The notes under the pieces: model-generated
What the model was told of the DNA's origin: nothing
Seen by the model: only the letters and a program-made list of their open reading frames with translations
Databases searched by the model: none
From: OM182 bacterium MED-G28
Lineage (GTDB): Bacteria > Pseudomonadota > Gammaproteobacteria > Pseudomonadales > Pseudohongiellaceae
Direction: 5' to 3'
DNA: 64,000 bases
NCBI GenBank assembly: GCA_002457215.1
Contig: NTJZ01000002.1
Coordinates: 62,001 to 126,000, forward strand
Part shown: piece by piece, positions 25,152 through 38,938 of the stretch
Position numbering within the stretch: the stretch's first letter is position 1
Layout: every line of letters starts with the position of its first letter
Program-made: the position numbers and the translations under genes

Positions 25152-25739
25152 GTGAATCAAAAACTAACCCGCAGACGCTTCATCAAAGGGGTAATTGCCT
25201 CTGGTGCGGCTGCCACGAGCACTGCAGCTTGGTACTCGGCAACTGGCCAAGAACGCCCTTCAGGATTTGTTGAACGTCTGGTCCGAATCAATGTAAATGG
25301 TCAAGTTCGCAGTGTTGACGTTGAGCCACAGGAAACTTTGGCATCAACGTTGCGTTATAAGCTTGGCTTAACAGGAACTAAACTCGGATGTAACCGCGGT
25401 GAGTGCGGTGCCTGCACAGTGTTAGTTGATGACGTAACAACTTACGCTTGTTCAGTGCTCACTCATTCTATGAAGAATGGGCGCATTGAGACCGTGGAAG
25501 GTCTTGAAAGTGCTAACGGCGATTTGCATCCAGTGCAGCAGGCCTTTGTGGAAGAGCTTTCCCCACAGTGCGGTTACTGCACACCAGGACAAGTAATGTC
25601 AGCAGTAGGTTTGTTGCGCGCTAATCCTAATCCAAGCCGAGAAGAAGCACGACACGCCATGTCTGGCAATATATGTCGCTGTGGATCTTATGACTCTTAC
25701 CTCGACGGCGTTATGCGCGCTACCGAATTAATAGGATAA
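25152..25739 (+). CDS. Tat-exported 2Fe-2S subunit of a molybdenum hydroxylase (PaoA/XdhC-type)
   Basis: 195-aa electron-transfer subunit of a xanthine-dehydrogenase-family enzyme. A twin-arginine signal (TRRRFIKGVIASGAAA) at residues 6-22 directs export. The plant-type ferredoxin domain has CNRGECGACTVLV plus a later Cys, and the all-helical second domain has CGYCTPGQVM and CRCGSY, giving two 2Fe-2S clusters. AAGGAGG lies 10-11 nt before the GTG start. It is first in an operon with the molybdopterin, FAD and cytochrome b genes. As in E. coli PaoABC, this subunit probably carries the signal for the whole complex. Confidence 0.93.
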   Translation: MNQKLTRRRFIKGVIASGAAATSTAAWYSATGQERPSGFVERLVRINVNGQVRSVDVEPQETLASTLRYKLGLTGTKLGCNRGECGACTVLVDDVTTYACSVLTHSMKNGRIETVEGLESANGDLHPVQQAFVEELSPQCGYCTPGQVMSAVGLLRANPNPSREEARHAMSGNICRCGSYDSYLDGVMRATELIG

Positions 25740-25744
25740 TTATC

Positions 25745-28168
25745 ATGGCATATATGCATATTGGCAAAGATTTTACTCCACCAGATGTGCCGGGTAAGGT
25801 GACTGGTAGGATTAAGTATGCAGAAGATTACACTCGCGAGGGTATGGTCTATGCACGCTTACTAACAAGTCCAATTCCTCACGCACGGGTATTGGACATA
25901 GACGCGTCAGCGGCACTAGCGATGGATGGTGTTATTGGCATACTCACAGCGGATGATGTTTATCCGGATGGAGAGCCGCAAAGCACTGGCTTAAAAATTC
26001 TCACTAACGAACCTACTTTGGTCGGTGAGCCAATTCTTGCCCTGGCAGCGGTGGACGAGAAAACTGCAGAGTCTGCTATCGCGCAAATTTCTGTTACTTT
26101 CGAAAGACTTCCTTTCGTTCTCGATCCGTTAGACAGCTTACAGCCAGGTGGTGCCGACGCTTATAATGGCGGCAACACGTTCGTTTTCCGTCAGGGATTT
26201 GCTGAAGAGAAGTGGACTGCTGACCAAGTAGCGAGTTTTCGCGCTGGTAATGAACCAACAGCGGAACCGCAGCAGACCGTTGAATATGGCGATCTTGACG
26301 CAGCTTTTGGTGAATCTTCTTATGTTTACGAAGGAACCTTCACCAACGCAGGTTACCCACACCATTCGATGGAACCACGTAGTGCATTAGCTTACTGGGA
26401 AGACGGCAAGCTATACCTGCATGGTGGATCGCAGAGTCTAACCGCTTTTGCTGATGGTATTGCCGGTATTATAGGTGTTCCAAAAGAAGACTTAGTCTTC
26501 GTTAACGCGGCAACCGGTGGTGGTTTTGGTCAACGCGCCCGAGCAGGGTCAGTTCCCGTCTATGCTGTTCCAGCGAAACTTTCCCAAAAAATTAATCGTC
26601 CAGTGATGATGCGTGCAACCCGCGAAGAAGAATTCACCTTGGGTGGTGCTCGTCAGGGTCTTACCGGTTGGATCAAGGTGGGATTCAAGCCCGATGGCGT
26701 GATGGCAGCTTGTGATCTTTGGATCGTATCTGACAACGGAGGCAAAGGCGGTGGGGCAGACGCTTACTCAGCAGCTGATTGTATAAGCGTACTTTATCAA
26801 GCCGACGCAGTTCGTTTCCGTGGCACTGCTATCGGAACAAACACTGCACACCGTGGTGCCCAACGTGGTCCTGGTCAAAATCAGATCGCGCCGATCATCT
26901 CTCCGATCTTGGATGTTGCGGCAGACGAACTCGGTGTTAGTCGGCTCGATATTCGCAAAATAAACGCGGCAATGACTGGCGATGTTGGCGGCCCACAGCG
27001 CACGCCATTTACTTCCGCCTACATGCCAGAGGCGTTAGAGCAAGCTGCAACTGAATTTGATTGGGAAGGTCGTCAATCGCGGCGTCGCCAGACCAACGGC
27101 AGCAAAGTAATAGGTCTAGGTATAGGCCAGGGCTATCACAATGCAGGTCGTTCAGGCATGGACGGAATAGTCATGATGGGTGCTGATGGACGACTTAAAA
27201 TCCATAACGGAGTCGGAAATCTCGGCACTTATTCCTACGCATCAACTTCCCGAGCAGCCGCAGAAGTTCTGCAAATGCCTTGGGAGAGTTGCGATATTAT
27301 TACTGGACGCACAGACTTGCATTTGCCAATTACCTCGCCACAGGATGGCAGTAACTCAATCTTCACGAACACCCGAACTTGCTACGGAGCAGCTCAGGAT
27401 ATGTTAACGAAGATGAAAGAGATTGCTGCAACGGACTTAGGTGGCGATCCTGCTGATTACGATATCTCTAATGAGCGCGTCCATCAGATTGCTGACGAGT
27501 CAGTTGGCTACAGCTATGCGCAAGTTGCGCAACGAGCAATTGAGCTAGGTGGTAAATATACTGGCAGTGCAGAACTTCCTGAAGAACTAGCCGAGTGGAC
27601 GCAGATAGCAGTTTCCCGTCTGGAAGGTACTGGTTTTATGGGAATCTTCCATGATCCTCGCCACGAAGGTAACCCTCCAGGGTTTACCGTTACGGCTTGC
27701 GAAATCGAACTGGATAAGGAAACCGGTAAGATTGACATCCTTGAGATGATCAGTATCGGCGAAGCTGGAACTATCATGCACCCTAAAGGCATGGATAACC
27801 AACTGGTTGGTGGAGCTGTTTGGGGTATCGGTTTGTCAGTTTACGAGCGTCATCTGTATGACCCGCAAAATGGATTACCGGCAAGCACCGGTTACTGGCA
27901 GAGCAAGGTGCCAACCTATCTCGATACACCTCTAAAAATAGAAACTGGCTGGGTGGATTTACCTGATCCTGAGAACCCAGTTGGTGCACGTGGTATTGGT
28001 GAGCCTTCCATGGGCTCAGTTTCCGCCGCTCTTACCGCAGCAATCACCGACGCACTAGATGGTCACATCTTTGGTGCTTCGCCAATTACTGCAGACATGA
28101 TCATTAACCACGTAGCAGGAACATCCGAAGAAGCGGTACCTCTTGCTCAGAACAACTTCCGAGGTTGA
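25745..28168 (+). CDS. Molybdopterin-binding catalytic subunit of a xanthine-dehydrogenase-family hydroxylase
   Basis: 807-aa large subunit. The N-terminal aldehyde oxidase/xanthine dehydrogenase a/b hammerhead domain (VTGRIKYAEDY) precedes the molybdopterin domain with GGGFGQRA, the RGAQRGPGQNQ loop and the C-terminal GARGIGEPSMG. The last contains the conserved active-site glutamate. It has no signal peptide of its own, so export would depend on the Tat-bearing partner 5 nt upstream. Substrate is not readable: members oxidise purines, aldehydes or N-heterocycles. The GQRARAG/RGAQRGPG residues that shape the pocket could be compared with known enzymes. Gene order is FeS-Mo-FAD. Confidence 0.93.
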   Translation: MAYMHIGKDFTPPDVPGKVTGRIKYAEDYTREGMVYARLLTSPIPHARVLDIDASAALAMDGVIGILTADDVYPDGEPQSTGLKILTNEPTLVGEPILALAAVDEKTAESAIAQISVTFERLPFVLDPLDSLQPGGADAYNGGNTFVFRQGFAEEKWTADQVASFRAGNEPTAEPQQTVEYGDLDAAFGESSYVYEGTFTNAGYPHHSMEPRSALAYWEDGKLYLHGGSQSLTAFADGIAGIIGVPKEDLVFVNAATGGGFGQRARAGSVPVYAVPAKLSQKINRPVMMRATREEEFTLGGARQGLTGWIKVGFKPDGVMAACDLWIVSDNGGKGGGADAYSAADCISVLYQADAVRFRGTAIGTNTAHRGAQRGPGQNQIAPIISPILDVAADELGVSRLDIRKINAAMTGDVGGPQRTPFTSAYMPEALEQAATEFDWEGRQSRRRQTNGSKVIGLGIGQGYHNAGRSGMDGIVMMGADGRLKIHNGVGNLGTYSYASTSRAAAEVLQMPWESCDIITGRTDLHLPITSPQDGSNSIFTNTRTCYGAAQDMLTKMKEIAATDLGGDPADYDISNERVHQIADESVGYSYAQVAQRAIELGGKYTGSAELPEELAEWTQIAVSRLEGTGFMGIFHDPRHEGNPPGFTVTACEIELDKETGKIDILEMISIGEAGTIMHPKGMDNQLVGGAVWGIGLSVYERHLYDPQNGLPASTGYWQSKVPTYLDTPLKIETGWVDLPDPENPVGARGIGEPSMGSVSAALTAAITDALDGHIFGASPITADMIINHVAGTSEEAVPLAQNNFRG

Positions 28169-28169
28169 T

Positions 28170-29165
28170 ATGGTAGCCACATCACATGACGTAATGCCTG
28201 ATATTGAGCTTTATCAGCCAGCTGATGAAGCAACAGCGTTGGACCTTGCGTCCAGACTAGGTAACGAAGGTTGGCTACTAGGTGGTGGTCAGGATACTTA
28301 TGGCTGGTTGAAAGACCGCAATAAGACGCCTGCAGCCATGATTGAGCTGACACAAATTGACGCTTGGAAAGGCATCAAGGAAATCAGCGATGGAATTGAA
28401 ATCGGTGCAGTCACAACATTGACTGAAATCGCTAACAATCCTCTCGTACAGTCTCGTTATGGTGTTTTAGCAAAAGCAGCCAGCGTAGTAGCAAGTCCTC
28501 AAATTCGTAATGTAGGTACTCTAGGTGGTAACCTGAATCAGGATGCTCGTTGCTGGTACTACCGCCGCGGACTAGATTGTTATCGAGCCGGCGGCAATAT
28601 TTGCTATGCCGATTCACCTGAAGGACTCAATCGCGAGCATGCTTTATTTGGAGCAAGCCGTTGCGTTGCAGTTAGCCCTTCTGACACTGCGCCAGCTTTA
28701 GTCGCACTTGATGCGACAATGGTTGTTTCGAGTTCTAGTGGTGAACGCTTGATTCCAGCAGAAGATTTTTTCGTTGGGCCTGATCGTGACATTTTGAACA
28801 TGACTGTGCTTAACGACGATGAAATCCTGACAGCGGTTAGAATTCCAAACACTTGGGCGAATGCAGAGTTCTATTGGGAAAAGGTAGCCGATAGAAATGT
28901 ATGGGATTTTGCTCTAGTTAATATCGCTGCAGTTTTCAAAGTGTCTGGTGGAACAATCGAAGATTCACGTTTTGCTTGCGGAGCAGTTGAGTGCACACCG
29001 CGTCGGTTGGAAGCAGTTGAAAGCGAAGTTCGCGGTCAACAGCGTTCTGAAGAGCTTGCGGTTAGCGCCGGTGAAATAGCAACAGATGGCGCACGTGCAC
29101 TGAACTACAACAACTTTAAAATACCATTAATGCAAAACCTGGTTAAAAGAGCGATCCGAGGGTAA
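28170..29165 (+). CDS. FAD-binding subunit of the molybdenum hydroxylase, with extra Fe-S cysteines
   Basis: 331-aa FAD subunit (PaoB/HcrB-like). FAD contacts include LLGGGQDTYGWLK and PQIRNVGTLGGNL. An insertion between the FAD motifs has four cysteines: CWYYRRGLDC, then GGNICYAD and ASRCVAVSPSDTAPAL. This spacing resembles the extra 4Fe-4S-cluster loop known in 4-hydroxybenzoyl-CoA reductase beta and PaoB. The ORF track starts at 28143 inside the previous gene; ATG 28170 (MVATSH), with GAGG upstream and directly after the preceding stop, is preferred. Same operon. Confidence 0.92.
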   Translation: MVATSHDVMPDIELYQPADEATALDLASRLGNEGWLLGGGQDTYGWLKDRNKTPAAMIELTQIDAWKGIKEISDGIEIGAVTTLTEIANNPLVQSRYGVLAKAASVVASPQIRNVGTLGGNLNQDARCWYYRRGLDCYRAGGNICYADSPEGLNREHALFGASRCVAVSPSDTAPALVALDATMVVSSSSGERLIPAEDFFVGPDRDILNMTVLNDDEILTAVRIPNTWANAEFYWEKVADRNVWDFALVNIAAVFKVSGGTIEDSRFACGAVECTPRRLEAVESEVRGQQRSEELAVSAGEIATDGARALNYNNFKIPLMQNLVKRAIRG

Positions 29166-29220
29166 ACCTCGGGTCATCTCCGCTAGCTGAAAAAACTAAT
29201 TAGAATAAGAGGGTAGTACA

Positions 29221-29988
29221 GTGGGAGAAATAGTCCGCTATAAACGCGACGTTTGGGGGGAAGAAGTTATCCTCGGTGTTTCTTGGGATTTGCTCTACGT
29301 CGTTTTCATGGCCATTGTAATTCTATTGATTGCACACGCAATTATTATGGCAGCACTGGCTAAGAAAAATTTAGACAGACCGACTGGAGACGGTCGACGC
29401 GTTGTGAGGCATGAGTCAATTGATCGGTTATTTCACTGGTTAATGGCAGCGAGTATTCTGGTATTGATTTTCACTGGTGTAGCGCCCATTCTCGGATTAC
29501 GCGTTGCCTGGCTAGATATTCATTGGATCAGTGGTCTTTTGCTCACATTTTTGGTTGTTGCGCATATTATTCGTGCGTCATTTTGGCAAGATTTTAAATC
29601 CATGCTTCTAATGCCAAAAGATTTTGCTGAACCATTCGATTCGTCAAGAAAGCCTGGCAAATATTACTTTGAGCAGAAAGGCATGCATTGGGCCGTTACA
29701 GTTGTTGCCCTAGCGGTCATCGTGACTGGTGTTTTAATGTTCATGCAGATCGATTCGCCATTTTGGGATCGCACTAACAGCATGGCGGAAGATCAATTAG
29801 GACTAGTATTTTTGTTGCATGGTCTATCAACCCTAGCATTGGTAGCTCTTGCAGCAACGCATATCTATTTTGCGCTTCGTCCTGAAAAGATTTTTTACAC
29901 TCGCTCTATGATTTCCGGATGGATGTCAGAAGACGAGATGGCAGCTAATCACGATACTTCAAAGTGGTCGCCGAAAGAAGCCGAGTAG
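29221..29988 (+). CDS. Membrane cytochrome b subunit (FdnI/cytochrome b561-like)
   Basis: 255-aa integral membrane protein with about five hydrophobic segments, including an extra N-terminal helix before the formate-dehydrogenase-gamma-like core. Candidate heme ligands lie in HESIDRLFHWLMAA, DIHWISGLLL, VVAHIIRA and ATHIYFAL. It starts with GTG after GAGGG, 55 nt downstream of the FAD subunit. It is inferred to dock the periplasmic molybdenum hydroxylase and pass electrons to quinone. Dedicated cytochrome b subunits are common for formate dehydrogenases and hydrogenases but not usual for PaoABC-type enzymes. Confidence 0.88.
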   Translation: MGEIVRYKRDVWGEEVILGVSWDLLYVVFMAIVILLIAHAIIMAALAKKNLDRPTGDGRRVVRHESIDRLFHWLMAASILVLIFTGVAPILGLRVAWLDIHWISGLLLTFLVVAHIIRASFWQDFKSMLLMPKDFAEPFDSSRKPGKYYFEQKGMHWAVTVVALAVIVTGVLMFMQIDSPFWDRTNSMAEDQLGLVFLLHGLSTLALVALAATHIYFALRPEKIFYTRSMISGWMSEDEMAANHDTSKWSPKEAE

Positions 29989-31527: not shown

Positions 31528-31562
31528 GTTTTCTAAAATTTGGAATGTAGTAGGTGGAAGCA

Positions 31563-32753
31563 ATGAAAGCCTTTGTATTGAAAAGTATTTTTTATACCAG
31601 TATTTTTCTACCAATGTTGATTCATCTGTCAGCGTCTGCACAACCTGATGATGCTGCTGGAGCATATTCGGCGGCTGACGGCGCTGCCGGAGCTAGTAGC
31701 TACGACGAGCCAACCGTTTCCAGTGTATATGATACAGAATACGAGTCGCAGCTACTTAGTGGCACTTATCAATTAATCACTGATAGTTTGCGTTCGGGTG
31801 AAGGCTATTTCTCAGCTGATGGTAATCGGTTTATTTTTCAGAGCGAAGTGCCAAGTGATAATCCCTTCTATCAAATCTTTGTGCGTGACTTGGAGACAGG
31901 CGCAACAAATCGAGTATCCCCTGGCATTGGATTAACTACTTGCGCCTGGATACATCCTACAATGGATAGAGTGATGTTCTCATCGACACATGAAGACCCT
32001 GATGCCCTCGCAAAACAAGCTGAAGAAATGCAGATTCGTAGAAGCGGTATTGAGAGAGCATATGGTTGGGACTATGACCGGCACTATGATATCTATCAAG
32101 CCAATAGTGATGGTAGCGATATCGTTAATCTAACGAGCCAAGATGGTTATGATGCAGAGGGTTCATATTCCACCGATGGATCGAAAATCCTTTTCGCATC
32201 AAATCGCAATGCTTACAATTATACTCTCAGCCAAGCCGAGCAGCAGTTGTTTGACGATGACAGCTCCTACTTTATGGACTTGTACATGATGGATGCTGAT
32301 GGGTCTAATGTTAAACAACTAACCCATTCTCCAGGCTACGACGGTGGACCGTTCTTTAGTCCCGATAACACTAAAGTAGTCTGGCGCCGCTTTAATCCTG
32401 ATGGCAATAGCGCAGAAATATGGACCATGGATATAGACGGCAGTAATCAACGCCAACTTACCGCCGATGTGATGGTATCTTGGGGGCCTTACTTTCACCC
32501 TAGTGGTGATTACATTATTTACTCCAGCAATATACTTGGCCATGCAAATTTTGAATTGTTTATGATTGATCCTGAAGGAGCCAATCCACCTGTGAGGGTA
32601 ACCAACACGGAAGGTACTGATATTCTTCCGGTATTCTCGCCTGCTGGCGACAAATTAGCTTGGAGCACTACTCGTACCCCAGACGGCACTTCCCAGATAC
32701 ATATGTCAGACTGGAACCATGGCCGTGCCTTGGAGATCCTTGGCCTCGATTAA
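31563..32753 (+). CDS. Secreted PD40/TolB-like beta-propeller protein
   Basis: 396-aa exported protein. ATG 31563 (MKAFVLKSIFYTS) begins a clear signal peptide ending near SASAQ and has AGGTGGA upstream; the GTG at 31554 in the ORF track is unlikely. At least five PD40 blades are visible (GYFSADGNRFIFQSE, GSYSTDGSKILFASN, PFFSPDNTKVVWRR and PVFSPAGDKLAWSTT among them). Such propellers usually mediate protein or ligand binding in the periplasm. It lies 15 nt upstream of the M1-M28 protease, so the two are probably co-transcribed and may act together on peptides. Confidence 0.85.
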   Translation: MKAFVLKSIFYTSIFLPMLIHLSASAQPDDAAGAYSAADGAAGASSYDEPTVSSVYDTEYESQLLSGTYQLITDSLRSGEGYFSADGNRFIFQSEVPSDNPFYQIFVRDLETGATNRVSPGIGLTTCAWIHPTMDRVMFSSTHEDPDALAKQAEEMQIRRSGIERAYGWDYDRHYDIYQANSDGSDIVNLTSQDGYDAEGSYSTDGSKILFASNRNAYNYTLSQAEQQLFDDDSSYFMDLYMMDADGSNVKQLTHSPGYDGGPFFSPDNTKVVWRRFNPDGNSAEIWTMDIDGSNQRQLTADVMVSWGPYFHPSGDYIIYSSNILGHANFELFMIDPEGANPPVRVTNTEGTDILPVFSPAGDKLAWSTTRTPDGTSQIHMSDWNHGRALEILGLD

Positions 32754-32768
32754 GTTAACTGAGCCTCG

Positions 32769-35700
32769 ATGAAGCGACTTTCTTTCTTCTTTCTTCTGAC
32801 TATTAGCTTGCCTTTGATTGGGTTCGGGCAGGCTCAGCCTCAATTTGTCCAAATTGCCGAGCCAGAACCAATACCTTCGACTCATCACAGTCTGAAGATA
32901 CTGCTCGACCCGATCGCGCGACGGATTACAGTTGAGGACACCATTAGCTTCCCGGAGAAGTTGCGAGATTCTTCAAAGACCTTTGAATTGAACAATAATC
33001 TAATTATTAGTGAAAATTCCGGTTCGCTGCAGCAACTCTCCAACAATGTGTCCCAAGAAAATATTGGAATTAATGCGACCGGTGGGCTTGCTGCGACTAC
33101 AAATGAATATTCTCTCACTTTACCTGCAAACAATAATGGCCAAGCTTTTTTTGCCTATAGCGGTTCTATTTATGATTTGGCAGAACAATCCAGTCCTGAA
33201 TATGCCCAAAGCTTTTCTGAAACATCAGGCATTATTGGGGAACAAGGTGTTTATCTAAATCACGCCAGTGCTTGGGTGCCTATTTTTGACAACGGACTGG
33301 TCACGTTCGATTTAGAAGTTGAGTTTGCTGATACAGCATCCACTTGGAAAGTTGTAAGTCAAGGGGATCGAAATGGTGAAAACGCTTGGGTAACGCATGA
33401 CCCAATGGAAGAGATCTTTTTAATCGCTGCAAATTTCACTGAATATTCAGCCCAAGCAGATAATGTTGAGGTGCTAGCCTACCTACGAACGCCGGATTCC
33501 AATTTGGCGACCAAATATATGGATGCCACTGAAAGATACTTGAAACTTTATGAGCCTTTATTGGGCGCTTATCCTTATAGCAAGTTTGCATTGGTAGAAA
33601 ATTTTTGGGAGACCGGCTATGGCATGCCGTCATTTACTTTACTTGGAGAACAGGTAATTCGTTTTCCATTTATTCTTGAGTCTTCTTACCCTCATGAGAT
33701 ATTGCATAATTGGTGGGGCAATGGTGTTTACCCTGATTACGAATCTGGTAATTGGAGTGAAGGCTTAACCGCCTATCTCGCCGATCATTTGTTTCAAGAA
33801 ATGAATGGAGTAGGTCACGAGTACCGTAAAGAAATGTTAGCTCGTTATAAAAACTATGTTGCCGAAGGATCAGATTTTCCCTTGGCGCGGTTCGCTTCGC
33901 GAAATTCAGCGGCATCACAGGCAGTGGGCTATGGGAAAACACTTATGCTTTGGCATATGTTGCGGATCGAGTTAGGGGATGACTTGTTTCTTGAAGGTCT
34001 ACGTAAGCTATATTCTGATTACAAATATCAGCGTGCTTCTTTTGCTGATATTGAAAAGTTGTTTACTGAAATCAGTAGTATCGATCTATCAGTTTTTTTT
34101 GATCAGTGGGTTAATAGAATCGGCGCGCCAGAGCTTTCATTGTCTGTTGAAGAAGCGACGGGTAATCGAGCGCGCATTATGTTCGCACAGACTCAGTTTG
34201 GGGATCCTTACCGATTGAGAGTACCAATCGCGCTTTATTACGAAGGTGAACCTGAACCAGAGATCTATGAAATTGCTTTATCACAAAAGCTCGAGGGTTT
34301 TTTTGCTGATGACTTCGAACGCTTGGAGGCAGTGTTAGTTGATCCATATTTCGATGTGTTCCGTCAGTTAGATAGAAAAGAGACACCGCCTACCATCGGT
34401 GAATTGTTTGGTGCAAGTGAGATTGCTTTTGTTCTACCAAGCTCAGAAAGGCAGCACTGGGTACAAATGACCGAAGCCTTTAGTTACGGTGTTGACGCGG
34501 ATATTGTTTATGCTGATGACATCGAATCGATTCCTTCTGACCGTTCCGTCTGGATACTCGGCCGGGATAACCCGTTTATTGAAGTAGCGTACTCTAATAC
34601 TGCACTTTATGGAGTATCCAGTTCTCCAGCCGGAGTAGTGATAGCTGGTAGTGAAGTTGAGTTTGAGAACCGAAGCACTGTTGTCATTGGGCGTCATCCG
34701 CAAGATCAGGATTTAGCCGTCGGTTGGATTCATGTAGAAGACATGATTGCGATGCCCGGCATGATCGAAAAATTACCCCATTATGGTAAATATTCTTATT
34801 TGAGTTTCGTTGGCAGCGAGCCTACGAATGATGTGAAAGGCATATGGACTAGCCCTAATTCCCCTTTGCGATGGAAAAAACCAGGCCTATTAGATGAGAT
34901 AAATTGGGAATCGGTTCCTTCCATAACGCCGTTGACCAAGTTGCCACCAAAATATTTACCTGGACAATTACTTCGTCATGCTAATGAGCTTACTAGCAAA
35001 GCCATGGAAGGGAGAGCTATAAGCAGTAAAGGTATCGACAGAGCTGCTCTCTATATTGCTGATCAGTTTCGAATAGCCGGTTTGCTGCCTGCAGACGGAA
35101 CTTACATTCAGCGCTGGCGGGATTCAATCCCTGGTTATCTTAATTTAGAACTAGCGAACGTGGTGGGGATTATCCCAGGTACGAATCGTGAGTTGAGTGC
35201 CAAGCCTATTGTTATCGGAGCGCACTATGACCATCTCGGCGTTAATGATGAAGGCGAGTTTTATCCGGGAGCAGATGATAATGCTTCAGGCGTTAGTGTG
35301 CTTATAGAAGTTGCTGCGAAATTGGCCAGGGCCTTCACTCCTCAGCGCCCAATACTTTTTGTTGCCTTCAGCGGAGAAGAGCAAGGACTTTTGGGATCTC
35401 AACATTTTGTTGAGAACCCGCCCGGCGGATTTGTCACAGAAGACTTATTTGCCATGATTAATCTCGATGCAGTCGGTAGGTTGAATGGTCGTACTTTACA
35501 AGTGTTTGGAACCGAATCGGCTTATGAGTGGCCCTTCATGGCCCAAGGTATAGGCTTCACTATTGGTGTCGAGTCTGAGTTTCCTGAGGACACAATAGCG
35601 AGCAGTGACCATGTAAGCTTTCTTAATGCTGGCGTGCCTGCAATTCATTTATTCAGTGGTACCCATTTAGACTATCATCAACCGACAGATACCCCGGAAA

Positions 35701-36101
35701 AGCTCGATTCAAATGGAATGTCTAGTATTGCACTGTGGTTAGAAGAAGCTGCTATTTATTTGGGGAATCGTGCCGATCCACTGCGGGTGAATCTTGCAGG
35801 TGCAGAGATTATTGAGATAGCAAGTCCTCAAGGCGAGCGCGCTGCCGGCCTGGGCACCGTGCCCGACTTTGCCTATAGTGGCGAAGGTGTTCGCATCTCG
35901 GGGGTGACCCCAGACGGTGCCGCTGGGGAAGCAGGCCTTCTAGCGGGCGATGTCTTACTTAATTACAACGGAGAACCTATTGTTGACATGCAATCCTATT
36001 CGAATTTTCTAAGGCAATCCGCACCAGGAGATAAAGTAAGTATCGAAGTATTGCGGGTCGACGAACAATTCTCTATCGAAGTTTTTTTAAAGGCGCGCTA
36101 G
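32769..36101 (+). CDS. Secreted M1-M28-PDZ fusion metalloprotease
   Basis: 1110-aa exported protein (signal peptide MKRLSFFFLLTISLPLIGFGQAQ). Residues about 30-550 form an M1 gluzincin region with HEILHNWW at 309-316 and the third ligand glutamate in NWSEGLTAY near 332. The usual GxMEN exopeptidase motif is replaced by GYGMPSFTL. Residues about 720-970 are an M28 aminopeptidase with GAHYDHLG, GADDNASG, FSGEEQGLLGS, INLDAVGR and HLDYHQPTD, so all zinc ligands appear intact. A PDZ domain follows (about 1010-1105). Both peptidase sites look active. It is likely to degrade peptides in the periplasm or at the surface. Confidence 0.9.
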   Translation: MKRLSFFFLLTISLPLIGFGQAQPQFVQIAEPEPIPSTHHSLKILLDPIARRITVEDTISFPEKLRDSSKTFELNNNLIISENSGSLQQLSNNVSQENIGINATGGLAATTNEYSLTLPANNNGQAFFAYSGSIYDLAEQSSPEYAQSFSETSGIIGEQGVYLNHASAWVPIFDNGLVTFDLEVEFADTASTWKVVSQGDRNGENAWVTHDPMEEIFLIAANFTEYSAQADNVEVLAYLRTPDSNLATKYMDATERYLKLYEPLLGAYPYSKFALVENFWETGYGMPSFTLLGEQVIRFPFILESSYPHEILHNWWGNGVYPDYESGNWSEGLTAYLADHLFQEMNGVGHEYRKEMLARYKNYVAEGSDFPLARFASRNSAASQAVGYGKTLMLWHMLRIELGDDLFLEGLRKLYSDYKYQRASFADIEKLFTEISSIDLSVFFDQWVNRIGAPELSLSVEEATGNRARIMFAQTQFGDPYRLRVPIALYYEGEPEPEIYEIALSQKLEGFFADDFERLEAVLVDPYFDVFRQLDRKETPPTIGELFGASEIAFVLPSSERQHWVQMTEAFSYGVDADIVYADDIESIPSDRSVWILGRDNPFIEVAYSNTALYGVSSSPAGVVIAGSEVEFENRSTVVIGRHPQDQDLAVGWIHVEDMIAMPGMIEKLPHYGKYSYLSFVGSEPTNDVKGIWTSPNSPLRWKKPGLLDEINWESVPSITPLTKLPPKYLPGQLLRHANELTSKAMEGRAISSKGIDRAALYIADQFRIAGLLPADGTYIQRWRDSIPGYLNLELANVVGIIPGTNRELSAKPIVIGAHYDHLGVNDEGEFYPGADDNASGVSVLIEVAAKLARAFTPQRPILFVAFSGEEQGLLGSQHFVENPPGGFVTEDLFAMINLDAVGRLNGRTLQVFGTESAYEWPFMAQGIGFTIGVESEFPEDTIASSDHVSFLNAGVPAIHLFSGTHLDYHQPTDTPEKLDSNGMSSIALWLEEAAIYLGNRADPLRVNLAGAEIIEIASPQGERAAGLGTVPDFAYSGEGVRISGVTPDGAAGEAGLLAGDVLLNYNGEPIVDMQSYSNFLRQSAPGDKVSIEVLRVDEQFSIEVFLKAR

Positions 36102-36281: not shown

Positions 36282-36526
36282 GCCCGGTCTCCTCTGACCT
36301 TGATTGATAACATTAATTACAACTCATCAATCGGCTATCAGTGGGTCAGGATAAAGGCAAAATAGAGAAGAATTCTGATGAAACATGGCAATCGTTATCT
36401 GATTAGATTTTGCATTAACTAGCCCTTAAGCAAGAAACAAATGCAACTAATTGTTGCTATTTGACCCAGGCAGCACAGATTCCGTTATATTTCGGCACGT
36501 CACAAATTCACGCACTGAAGGTACTT

Positions 36527-38938
36527 GTGTCAATCATCAAAAATGTTTCGCAATTTTGTAATTTAATGGTGATTAGCGCTGTTTCTTTTTCGAGCGCGCA
36601 ATCTATTGCACAATTGCCTCTTCCGCGCATAACTCAAGTCGAAGAAGGTGATATCAATATTTTGCTTGATGGCTTTGTCGATGAACCCGCGTGGCAAAGT
36701 ATCCCTGTTATCGATGGCATGAAAATTACCGATCCAGACACACTGGAAGACGCGCCATATAGGACAGACATTCGTTTCTTCTATACGGAGCGAGGCATGT
36801 ATTTTTCTATGGTGAACCACCAACCTGCTGACTCTCTCATCGCTCGAATGACAGACCGTGACGCATCCCCACTTTTGCCTGTGAACGATGGGATAGGAGT
36901 GGTGATCGATGCTTCTGGAGATGGCCGTTATGGTTATGGTGTGCGCCTTGGTCTTGGCGACAGCATGACCGATATGTCCTTGCTTCCGGAGCGTCAATTG
37001 AATTTGCAGTGGGACGGGGCTTGGGATGGCCGAACTCAGATTATCGATGAAGGTTGGAGCGCAGAGATTTTCGTACCTTGGTCGATGATGCCGCTACCGC
37101 AAGCAGGAAATACGCGCAGAATAGGCCTCGCGTTTATCCGGAATGTGATGGAGCGAGGGGAGCTTTGGGGTACGCCTGCATTACCCCGAACAGAGAATGT
37201 CTTCTTAAGCGGTTTCCAAAAATACGAATTAAGTGAAATCGAGCCGCGTCGGCAACTGACGATCTACCCTTTCATTTCAACAGATTTTGATGGGGTTAGC
37301 CATGAAGCGGAGAATAAAATTGGCACCGATCTCTACTGGCGACCGACTACCAACACATTGTTATCTGGTACATTAAATCCAGATTTTGGAACGGTAGAGT
37401 CCGATGATGTAGTTGTTAACTTAACGGCTTTCGAGACTTTCTTTCCAGAAAAAAGGACTTTTTTTCTAGAGGGACAAGATGTGTTTAATACCAGCCCACG
37501 GTCGATAGCTCAGAATGTCCGAGGGCCGGGTGGCCCTATTACTCTCTTAAATACAAGAAGGATTGGAGGTGCATCGAGATATTCAGTTCCTGATGGGATA
37601 GGGGTTAGACCTACAGATTTGAGCCAGCCTACGGATTTGCTGGGGGCTGTTAAATTTACCGGCCAAAATGGGAATCTGCGATACGGGACATTAATAGCGT
37701 CGGAAGATGATTCTGAAATTCGCGGTACTTTATCCGATGGTACGAGGGTGAATCTTCAAGCGACTGGAAGCGACTATACAGTGGGAAGATTATTATATGA
37801 AGATACTGGCAGTGGAGGTAGGCGTTCGATTGGATGGATGGGTACAAATGTTTCTCACCCTGATATCGATTCAACGGTAAATGCCATTGATGCACATTAT
37901 TTTTCGGCTGATCAGCGCTGGATAGTGGATGGTCAGTTTATGCACAGTGATGTAAATGGAGAAACTGGTACTGGCTTTTTGGGCGATATTAGTTATATAC
38001 CCAGGCGTGGGGTGCAACATATCCTGACTTCTACTTATATCGATGATGAGTTCGATATGAACGACCTTGGTTTTATTTCGAGAAACTCCCAGATGAACTT
38101 AGATTATAATTTAGTCCTTACCGAATCGAACATACCTGGTCTGACATCACGGATGACGATGCTTACTTCTGTTAACAAATACAATACTGAAGGGGATTCA
38201 GTATTATCAGGCCAATTTGTTGGAAGAACTTGGAACTATTTAAACAACGATAGTTTTGATGTGACGCTGACGTACTTTCCCAAACGGGTCGATGACCGAC
38301 TTGGCAGAGGTACGGGTACTTTTCGTATTCCTGAACGTTTTGGAGTCCGGTCTAACTATAGTACTGATCCGGCTAAAAAAGTTGCTTGGACACTTAATCT
38401 AGAAGCTAGCCAAGAAGACTTGGGCCCGAAAAAAATCACTAGTGGGTTGGGAATTGTGTGGCGCCCGGATGATCGTTTTTCGTTTGATCTTGCGCTGAAT
38501 TATACTGATCAAGAAGCTCTGCTTGTTCACCAGGGGAATGGGAATTACACGAGTTTCGAGGCGCATCAATGGGCCCCAAAACTCCAGTCGAACTTCTTCA
38601 TCTCTGCGAAGCAACAATTTCGAATTAGCATGCAGTGGAATTCTTTGAAAGCATTCGAAGATCGTTTCTGGCAAGTAAATCCAGGGCGCCTAAAGCATCT
38701 GAGTCCGGTAGCTAATCCCGATAATGAGCCTGATGACTTTGTAATTAGTCGACTGACTTTCCAGGCAAGATATCGCTGGGAAATTGCCCCACTATCTGAT
38801 CTTTTTATTGTATATACACGGGGGTCTAATTTGCCAAGCAATAGTTTTTCCACTTTTCAGGACTTGTTCGAGCAATCTTGGAATGACAGTATAGTGGACA
38901 GCTTCGCAATTAAACTCCGTTATCGCTTTGGCAGTTAG
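36527..38938 (+). CDS. DUF5916-type outer-membrane protein with CBM9-like N-terminal domain
   Basis: The chosen GTG start (36527), with GAAGG 5 nt upstream, gives an 803-aa protein with a signal peptide ending near AQSIAQ; the track's TTG at 36461 adds an unlikely 22 residues. A CBM9-like beta-sandwich covers about residues 30-200 (LLDGFVDEPAWQSI, FFYTERGMYFSM, GWSAEIFVPWSM). A DUF5916 beta-rich region with FFPEKRTFFLEG and repeated amphipathic strands continues to the C-terminus (KLRYRFGS), consistent with an outer-membrane barrel. The substrate is unknown; the architecture is common next to secreted proteases and hydrolases. Confidence 0.85.
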   Translation: MSIIKNVSQFCNLMVISAVSFSSAQSIAQLPLPRITQVEEGDINILLDGFVDEPAWQSIPVIDGMKITDPDTLEDAPYRTDIRFFYTERGMYFSMVNHQPADSLIARMTDRDASPLLPVNDGIGVVIDASGDGRYGYGVRLGLGDSMTDMSLLPERQLNLQWDGAWDGRTQIIDEGWSAEIFVPWSMMPLPQAGNTRRIGLAFIRNVMERGELWGTPALPRTENVFLSGFQKYELSEIEPRRQLTIYPFISTDFDGVSHEAENKIGTDLYWRPTTNTLLSGTLNPDFGTVESDDVVVNLTAFETFFPEKRTFFLEGQDVFNTSPRSIAQNVRGPGGPITLLNTRRIGGASRYSVPDGIGVRPTDLSQPTDLLGAVKFTGQNGNLRYGTLIASEDDSEIRGTLSDGTRVNLQATGSDYTVGRLLYEDTGSGGRRSIGWMGTNVSHPDIDSTVNAIDAHYFSADQRWIVDGQFMHSDVNGETGTGFLGDISYIPRRGVQHILTSTYIDDEFDMNDLGFISRNSQMNLDYNLVLTESNIPGLTSRMTMLTSVNKYNTEGDSVLSGQFVGRTWNYLNNDSFDVTLTYFPKRVDDRLGRGTGTFRIPERFGVRSNYSTDPAKKVAWTLNLEASQEDLGPKKITSGLGIVWRPDDRFSFDLALNYTDQEALLVHQGNGNYTSFEAHQWAPKLQSNFFISAKQQFRISMQWNSLKAFEDRFWQVNPGRLKHLSPVANPDNEPDDFVISRLTFQARYRWEIAPLSDLFIVYTRGSNLPSNSFSTFQDLFEQSWNDSIVDSFAIKLRYRFGS

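Follow-up and report, generated by a model that had tools for sequence, protein, structure and literature searches.

Two adjacent genes on the forward strand of the window (the whole 64,000-nucleotide stretch of DNA analysed) are the subject of this work. The first encodes a PD40 protein; the second, which begins 3′ of it after a gap of 15 nt, is an open reading frame (32769–36101) for a peptidase of 1110 amino acids with, in order, a Sec-type N-terminus, an M1-like gluzincin, an alpha/beta domain, an M28 domain and a PDZ domain. The features are as follows.

31554..32753, +: PD40 beta-propeller protein, exported, candidate partner (PF07676; AlphaFold2; Foldseek; linkage and co-occurrence)
32769..36101, +: M1-like/M28/PDZ double peptidase, 1110 aa (Pfam and PDB profile matches; AlphaFold2 model)
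32769..32834, +: Sec-type signal peptide, residues ~1–22, without a lipobox (from sequence, by simple regular expression and not a trained predictor)
32880..33488, +: M1 domain I-like beta domain, residues 38–240 (AlphaFold2 secondary structure, Foldseek; boundaries approximate)
33489..34118, +: thermolysin-like catalytic domain II, residues 241–450 (Pfam Peptidase_M1 at 309–447, AlphaFold2, Foldseek)
33615..33647, +: GYGMPSFTLLG, residues 283–293, in the place of GxMEN (95/95 fusions; hhalign)
33693..33707, +: HEILH zinc motif, residues 309–313 (95/95 fusions)
33759..33761, +: third zinc ligand Glu331, X17 spacing (95/95 fusions; aligned to PepN KEG)
33930..33932, +: Tyr388, counterpart of the M1 catalytic Tyr, PepN YEKG (95/95 fusions; hhalign)
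34131..34343, +: M1 domain III-like beta-sandwich, residues 455–525 (AlphaFold2 model, Foldseek)
34386..34913, +: alpha/beta domain, residues 540–715, where the helical M1 domain IV is expected (DSSP of model)
34974..35777, +: M28 peptidase domain, residues 736–1003 (PF04389; PDB profile match)
35223..35225, +: M28 ligand His819 (95/95 fusions)
35277..35279, +: M28 bridging ligand Asp837 (95/95 fusions)
35376..35381, +: M28 catalytic base Glu870 and ligand Glu871 (95/95 fusions)
35466..35468, +: M28 ligand Asp900 (95/95 fusions)
35676..35678, +: M28 ligand His970 (95/95 fusions)
35841..36098, +: C-terminal PDZ domain, residues 1025–1110, HtrA/DegQ-like (PF17820; DegQ/DegP PDZ match)

The two proteins and their predicted structures

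The PD40 reading frame encodes 399 aa from a GTG at 31554, with an alternative ATG start at 31563, and its product has a plain Sec-type N-terminus. It matches PF07676 (E = 1.6e-27) and was modelled by AlphaFold2 as a predicted propeller (pLDDT 86) that in Foldseek resembles the propellers of TolB and of S9 peptidases; S9 propellers, however, are fused to their peptidases, whereas PD40 is encoded apart from its neighbour. Identity with TolB was excluded, the score against the TolB equivalog (107 bits, best stretch confined to the propeller repeats) lying far under the cut-off of 343, and identity with tricorn was excluded likewise, there being only a weak 26-bit match.

For the peptidase, Pfam placed Peptidase_M1 (PF01433) at residues 309–447 (37.0 bits against a curated cut-off of 27.7), Peptidase_M28 (PF04389) at 797–988 (E = 5e-40; 137.7 bits against 21.3) and PDZ_6 (PF17820) at 1043–1096 (E = 2e-11), the last bearing out the C-terminal PDZ domain of an earlier note on this DNA. 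In PDB profile searches the M28 half matched M28 aminopeptidases (E = 3e-30) and the C-terminus the PDZ domain of DegQ/DegP; each half led to its own family, and none of the listed matches was a structure spanning both. The earlier note had also called the protein secreted, of which the Sec-type signal peptide upholds putative export, without implying passage beyond the periplasm. A chance or frameshift artefact is excluded by the presence of the gene, mostly as one open reading frame, in 35/37 genomes of the genus.

An AlphaFold2 model of the peptidase, built with 65 family members (mean pLDDT 88.5, pTM 0.82), contains M1 domains I–III and lacks the helical HEAT-repeat domain IV. Residues 540–715, at the start of the expected domain IV, are alpha/beta by DSSP of the model and are followed by M28; the alpha/beta domain is also part of standalone M1-like relatives. 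Best Foldseek matches in the PDB were the M1 aminopeptidases PfA-M1, PepN and ERAP1 (E ~1e-22, 13–18% identity). In canonical M1 enzymes domain IV forms one side of the pocket (PMC10343166).

Molybdenum-hydroxylase-like genes (xanthine dehydrogenase type, judged by eye) and then a cytochrome b561 gene lie 5′ of the pair genus-wide (window 25152–29988), and in most members of the genus a DUF5916 gene (window 36461–38938) comes after the peptidase gene, as a tandem duplicate in some (L024, L039).

Two intact zinc sites and a replaced GxMEN

Homologues were drawn from the genus, from GTDB genomes and from a phylum sample, and 107 relatives were aligned with the window protein. Across the 95 full-length fusions in the alignment, from many phyla, both sites were invariant: H309, E310, H313, E331 and Y388 on the M1-like side, and H819, D837, E870, E871, D900 and H970 on the M28 side, the latter comprising the complete family M28 metal and catalytic set of His, Asp, Glu (base), Glu, Asp and His. 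The GTDB loci, most of those aligned, had been picked by the M1-side peptides ENFWETG and LHNWWGN, so that the choice of loci accounts for part of the conservation around HExxH but leaves that of the M28 residues unbiased. Two complete zinc sites had been claimed from the window sequence, and neither site proved incomplete on alignment. The M1-like ligands are all present, but their spacing, HEILH-X17-E, falls one residue short of the M1 consensus HEXXH-X18-E, which makes the ‘M1’ part an M1-like variant.

GxMEN is an exopeptidase motif found 22–38 residues upstream of the zinc motif (PMC2241622). The earlier reading of GYGMPSFTL in its stead was correct, and the replacement is fixed family-wide: G[YF]GMPS[FY]TLLG occupied this place in 95/95 full-length fusions, and the window's GYGMPSFTLLG aligned by hhalign with the GAMEN of PepN from its own genome. 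That PepN is an ordinary one, with GAMEN and HEYFH; its presence, together with the loss of GxMEN from the fusion, excludes the fusion as the housekeeping M1 enzyme.

Compared with M1 aminopeptidases (PepN, ERAP1, PSA, tricorn factor F3), then, the fusion shares domains I–III, HExxH, the glutamate ligand and the catalytic Tyr, but is without GxMEN and helical domain IV, has X17 for X18, and is joined to M28-PDZ. With M28 aminopeptidases (Bacillus YwaD, PDB 2EK8; the leucyl aminopeptidases 1AMP/1RTQ) it shares the co-catalytic dizinc ligands and the catalytic Glu, to which it adds the C-terminal PDZ domain and the N-terminal M1-like module.

Loss of GxMEN suggests a change from exo- to endopeptidase. 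Ap-O, however, is an M1 member with a degenerate GxMEN of which only the Met is kept (PMC2241622), so that loss of the motif is no proof of endopeptidase action, and this counts against the endopeptidase reading. Such members leave room for two complementary exopeptidases, in which the M1-like site would act as an aminopeptidase or dipeptidyl-type enzyme that uses different residues to bind the amino terminus, with the remaining specificities left to M28. Invariance of all the catalytic residues is in keeping with this, but the GxMEN glutamate is missing from every fusion and so is domain IV with its side of the pocket; we consider such an arrangement somewhat unlikely.

Distribution and origin of the fusion

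A scan of GTDB yielded at least 561 confirmed relatives, among them at least 78 near-full-length fusions from about ten phyla (Pseudomonadota, Planctomycetota, Acidobacteriota, Calditrichota, KSB1, Bacteroidota, Ignavibacteriota, Nitrospirota, Neomarinimicrobiota and others); a named strain, Nitrosomonas eutropha Nm 57, is among the carriers. The architecture, which had been thought unusual, is thus widespread, and that description is ruled out. The full fusion was found in 2/399 Pseudomonadota genomes and in 11/198 genomes of the phylum that includes the Ignavibacteriales genome G453.

Both modules also occur as separate proteins, M1-like ones of 664–891 aa and M28-PDZ ones of 410–460 aa, which identifies the 1110-aa chain as two modules fused at about residue 720. 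In a quick tree of the M28 domain, a single branch (SH-aLRT 99) set 34/34 fusions apart from the rest, with the standalone M28-PDZ proteins adjoining; by this tree the fusion looks to have had a single origin. Standalone M28-PDZ proteins (Bacteroidota, some Gammaproteobacteria) are the group nearest to the M28-PDZ half and are likewise paired or fused with PD40, but lack the M1-like module; no named family was found for them. The fusion is real and conserved, a common arrangement of known parts, and apparently unstudied: no publication on M1+M28, M28+PDZ or PD40+M28 was found in a literature search whose reach left most subscription journals outside.

That the modules exist apart bears on a further possibility, namely that independent nutrient-scavenging enzymes were joined by chance, with uncoupled sites, and that PDZ and PD40 merely tether them to the envelope. 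PD40 would suit a tether in being lipoprotein-like in many species, lipobox-like N-termini having been found by regular expression in 25/64 adjacent PD40 proteins. Both sites, however, are intact in every full-length fusion across some ten phyla after an apparent single origin, which suggests that co-location matters, and a chance joining is in our judgement improbable.

Two further observations concern neighbours of these genes. In G619 an immediate neighbour of the M1-M28-PDZ fusion encodes a ChaN/Tiki-superfamily protein (L185:6687-8036) that also has a PDZ domain at its C-terminus. At several of five loci, standalone M1-like genes (L206, L207, L209, Pseudomonadota) adjoin GGDEF/EAL or other signalling genes, and the M1-like module may be connected with c-di-GMP control.

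PD40 as a very likely partner, and a possible exported peptide-degrading unit

PD40 lay directly 5′ of the fusion in 46/46 loci from the genus and its closest relatives (some of them duplicate records of one genome). Among 54 distant loci, 15 carried a member of this PD40 subfamily no more than 350 nt from the fusion, on either side of it and in either orientation (four arrangements), against a crude chance expectation for such adjacency of <1% per genome, and in most of these linked distant genomes the copy at the fusion was the only or best PD40 match. Where PD40 did not directly adjoin, 18/21 fusion genomes still encoded a strong PD40 (7/7 in the Pseudomonadota subset), one 2.4 kb away and the rest unlinked. 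Among 399 Pseudomonadota genomes, full-length PD40 matches occurred only in the two with a full fusion, with one weak partial match elsewhere, while in a Bacteroidota-type sample PD40 was found in 10/11 fusion genomes and also in about half of the others; these co-occurrence tests ignore shared ancestry. A clear PD40 partner was not found in the fusion genomes G474, G476 and G488, nor in G497, and either the partner is not strictly needed or the assemblies are incomplete.

Linkage extends to M28-PDZ proteins that carry no M1-like module. PD40 adjoined a standalone M28-PDZ gene in 10/40 Bacteroidota-type loci and made up a tandem operon with such a gene in two Gammaproteobacteria (L195, L197), and three single-chain PD40-M28-PDZ proteins (L176, 743 aa; L177, 1004 aa; L180, 1013 aa) fell at three places on the M28-domain tree, as independent genes. 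No PD40 gene was seen beside standalone M1-like genes within the short flanks looked at. The frequency of PD40 in Bacteroidota without the fusion ties it to M28-PDZ generally. PD40 is very likely a partner of the M28-PDZ module, the common denominator of these linkages, and the propeller is probably a dedicated helper of the peptidase; the evidence bears on the M28-PDZ half and is not specific to the double peptidase. The earlier proposal that the PD40 neighbour is a partner is borne out by linkage in several arrangements, co-occurrence and natural fusions, and what is gained over that first reading is the evidence for PD40 as a dedicated partner of M28-PDZ.

The same data could mean that PD40 partners M28-PDZ only, its linkage to the fusion being a relic and the role of the M1-like module unrelated. 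Its pairing and fusion with standalone M28-PDZ, and its absence beside the M1-like genes, agree with this. A relic, however, would not be expected to stay immediately 5′ of the fusion throughout the genus and to turn up at other positions in distant phyla, as PD40 does, and we think this explanation unlikely.

Other PD40 and M28-PDZ genes show variation of their own. Some PD40 proteins carry N-terminal extensions of 320–400 aa (L178:1130-3316, L179:2485-4614, L181:1157-3091), and one M28-PDZ protein (L182:810-3176) has an N-terminal region of ~410 aa without a Pfam match. The PD40 of Nitrosomonas eutropha (L097:4627-5676) is 51–53% identical to that of the window, far above other distant copies, against ~40% for the peptidases of the two, which suggests that the histories of the two genes differ.

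The function of the pair is most likely periplasmic peptide degradation. Our preferred reading, held tentatively and at a little short of even, is that the two genes specify an exported peptide-degrading unit, with the M1-like site as internal cutter, M28 as trimmer, and PDZ and PD40 to gate or present. In M1 enzymes the GxMEN glutamate anchors the free amino terminus; a site with neither this amine-anchoring residue nor the capping domain would be expected to cut internally or to remove larger units. Its products would then feed the M28 site of the same chain, which would trim N-terminal residues, while the PDZ domain and the propeller may bind one another or the substrate and so limit or present the molecules that gain access to the M28 site, the propeller playing a part like that of S9 oligopeptidases but supplied in trans. 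Against this reading count not only Ap-O but also the four genomes without a clear PD40 and the abundance of PD40 in Bacteroidota that lack the fusion. In our view coupled endo- and exo-action is somewhat more likely than independent enzymes or complementary exopeptidases.

In the tricorn system propeller, PDZ and M1-type factors act together on peptides. The PD40/peptidase pair has parts of the same three kinds, but this is analogy only: the tricorn core is a serine peptidase and cytosolic, with a different order and different families, and its core domain, which carries propellers in one chain, was absent from both genes by Pfam. On this analogy the pair might be a two-gene periplasmic degradation machine of some ten phyla, in which an M1-like endopeptidase hands over to M28 and PD40, docked via M28-PDZ, gates entry, a separately evolved envelope counterpart of tricorn-type degradation; so full a version is speculative and, in our view, doubtful.

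Such genes are carried by many uncultured marine and sediment bacteria as well as by Nitrosomonas, and would usually be annotated by domain only. An M1-fold zinc peptidase that has neither the amine anchor nor domain IV would show what sets exo- against endo-action in this fold. If PD40 is a dedicated partner of M28-PDZ, a common propeller family now labelled ‘unknown’ would acquire a role that can be tested, and the pair would serve as a model for gating or substrate supply of exported peptidases.
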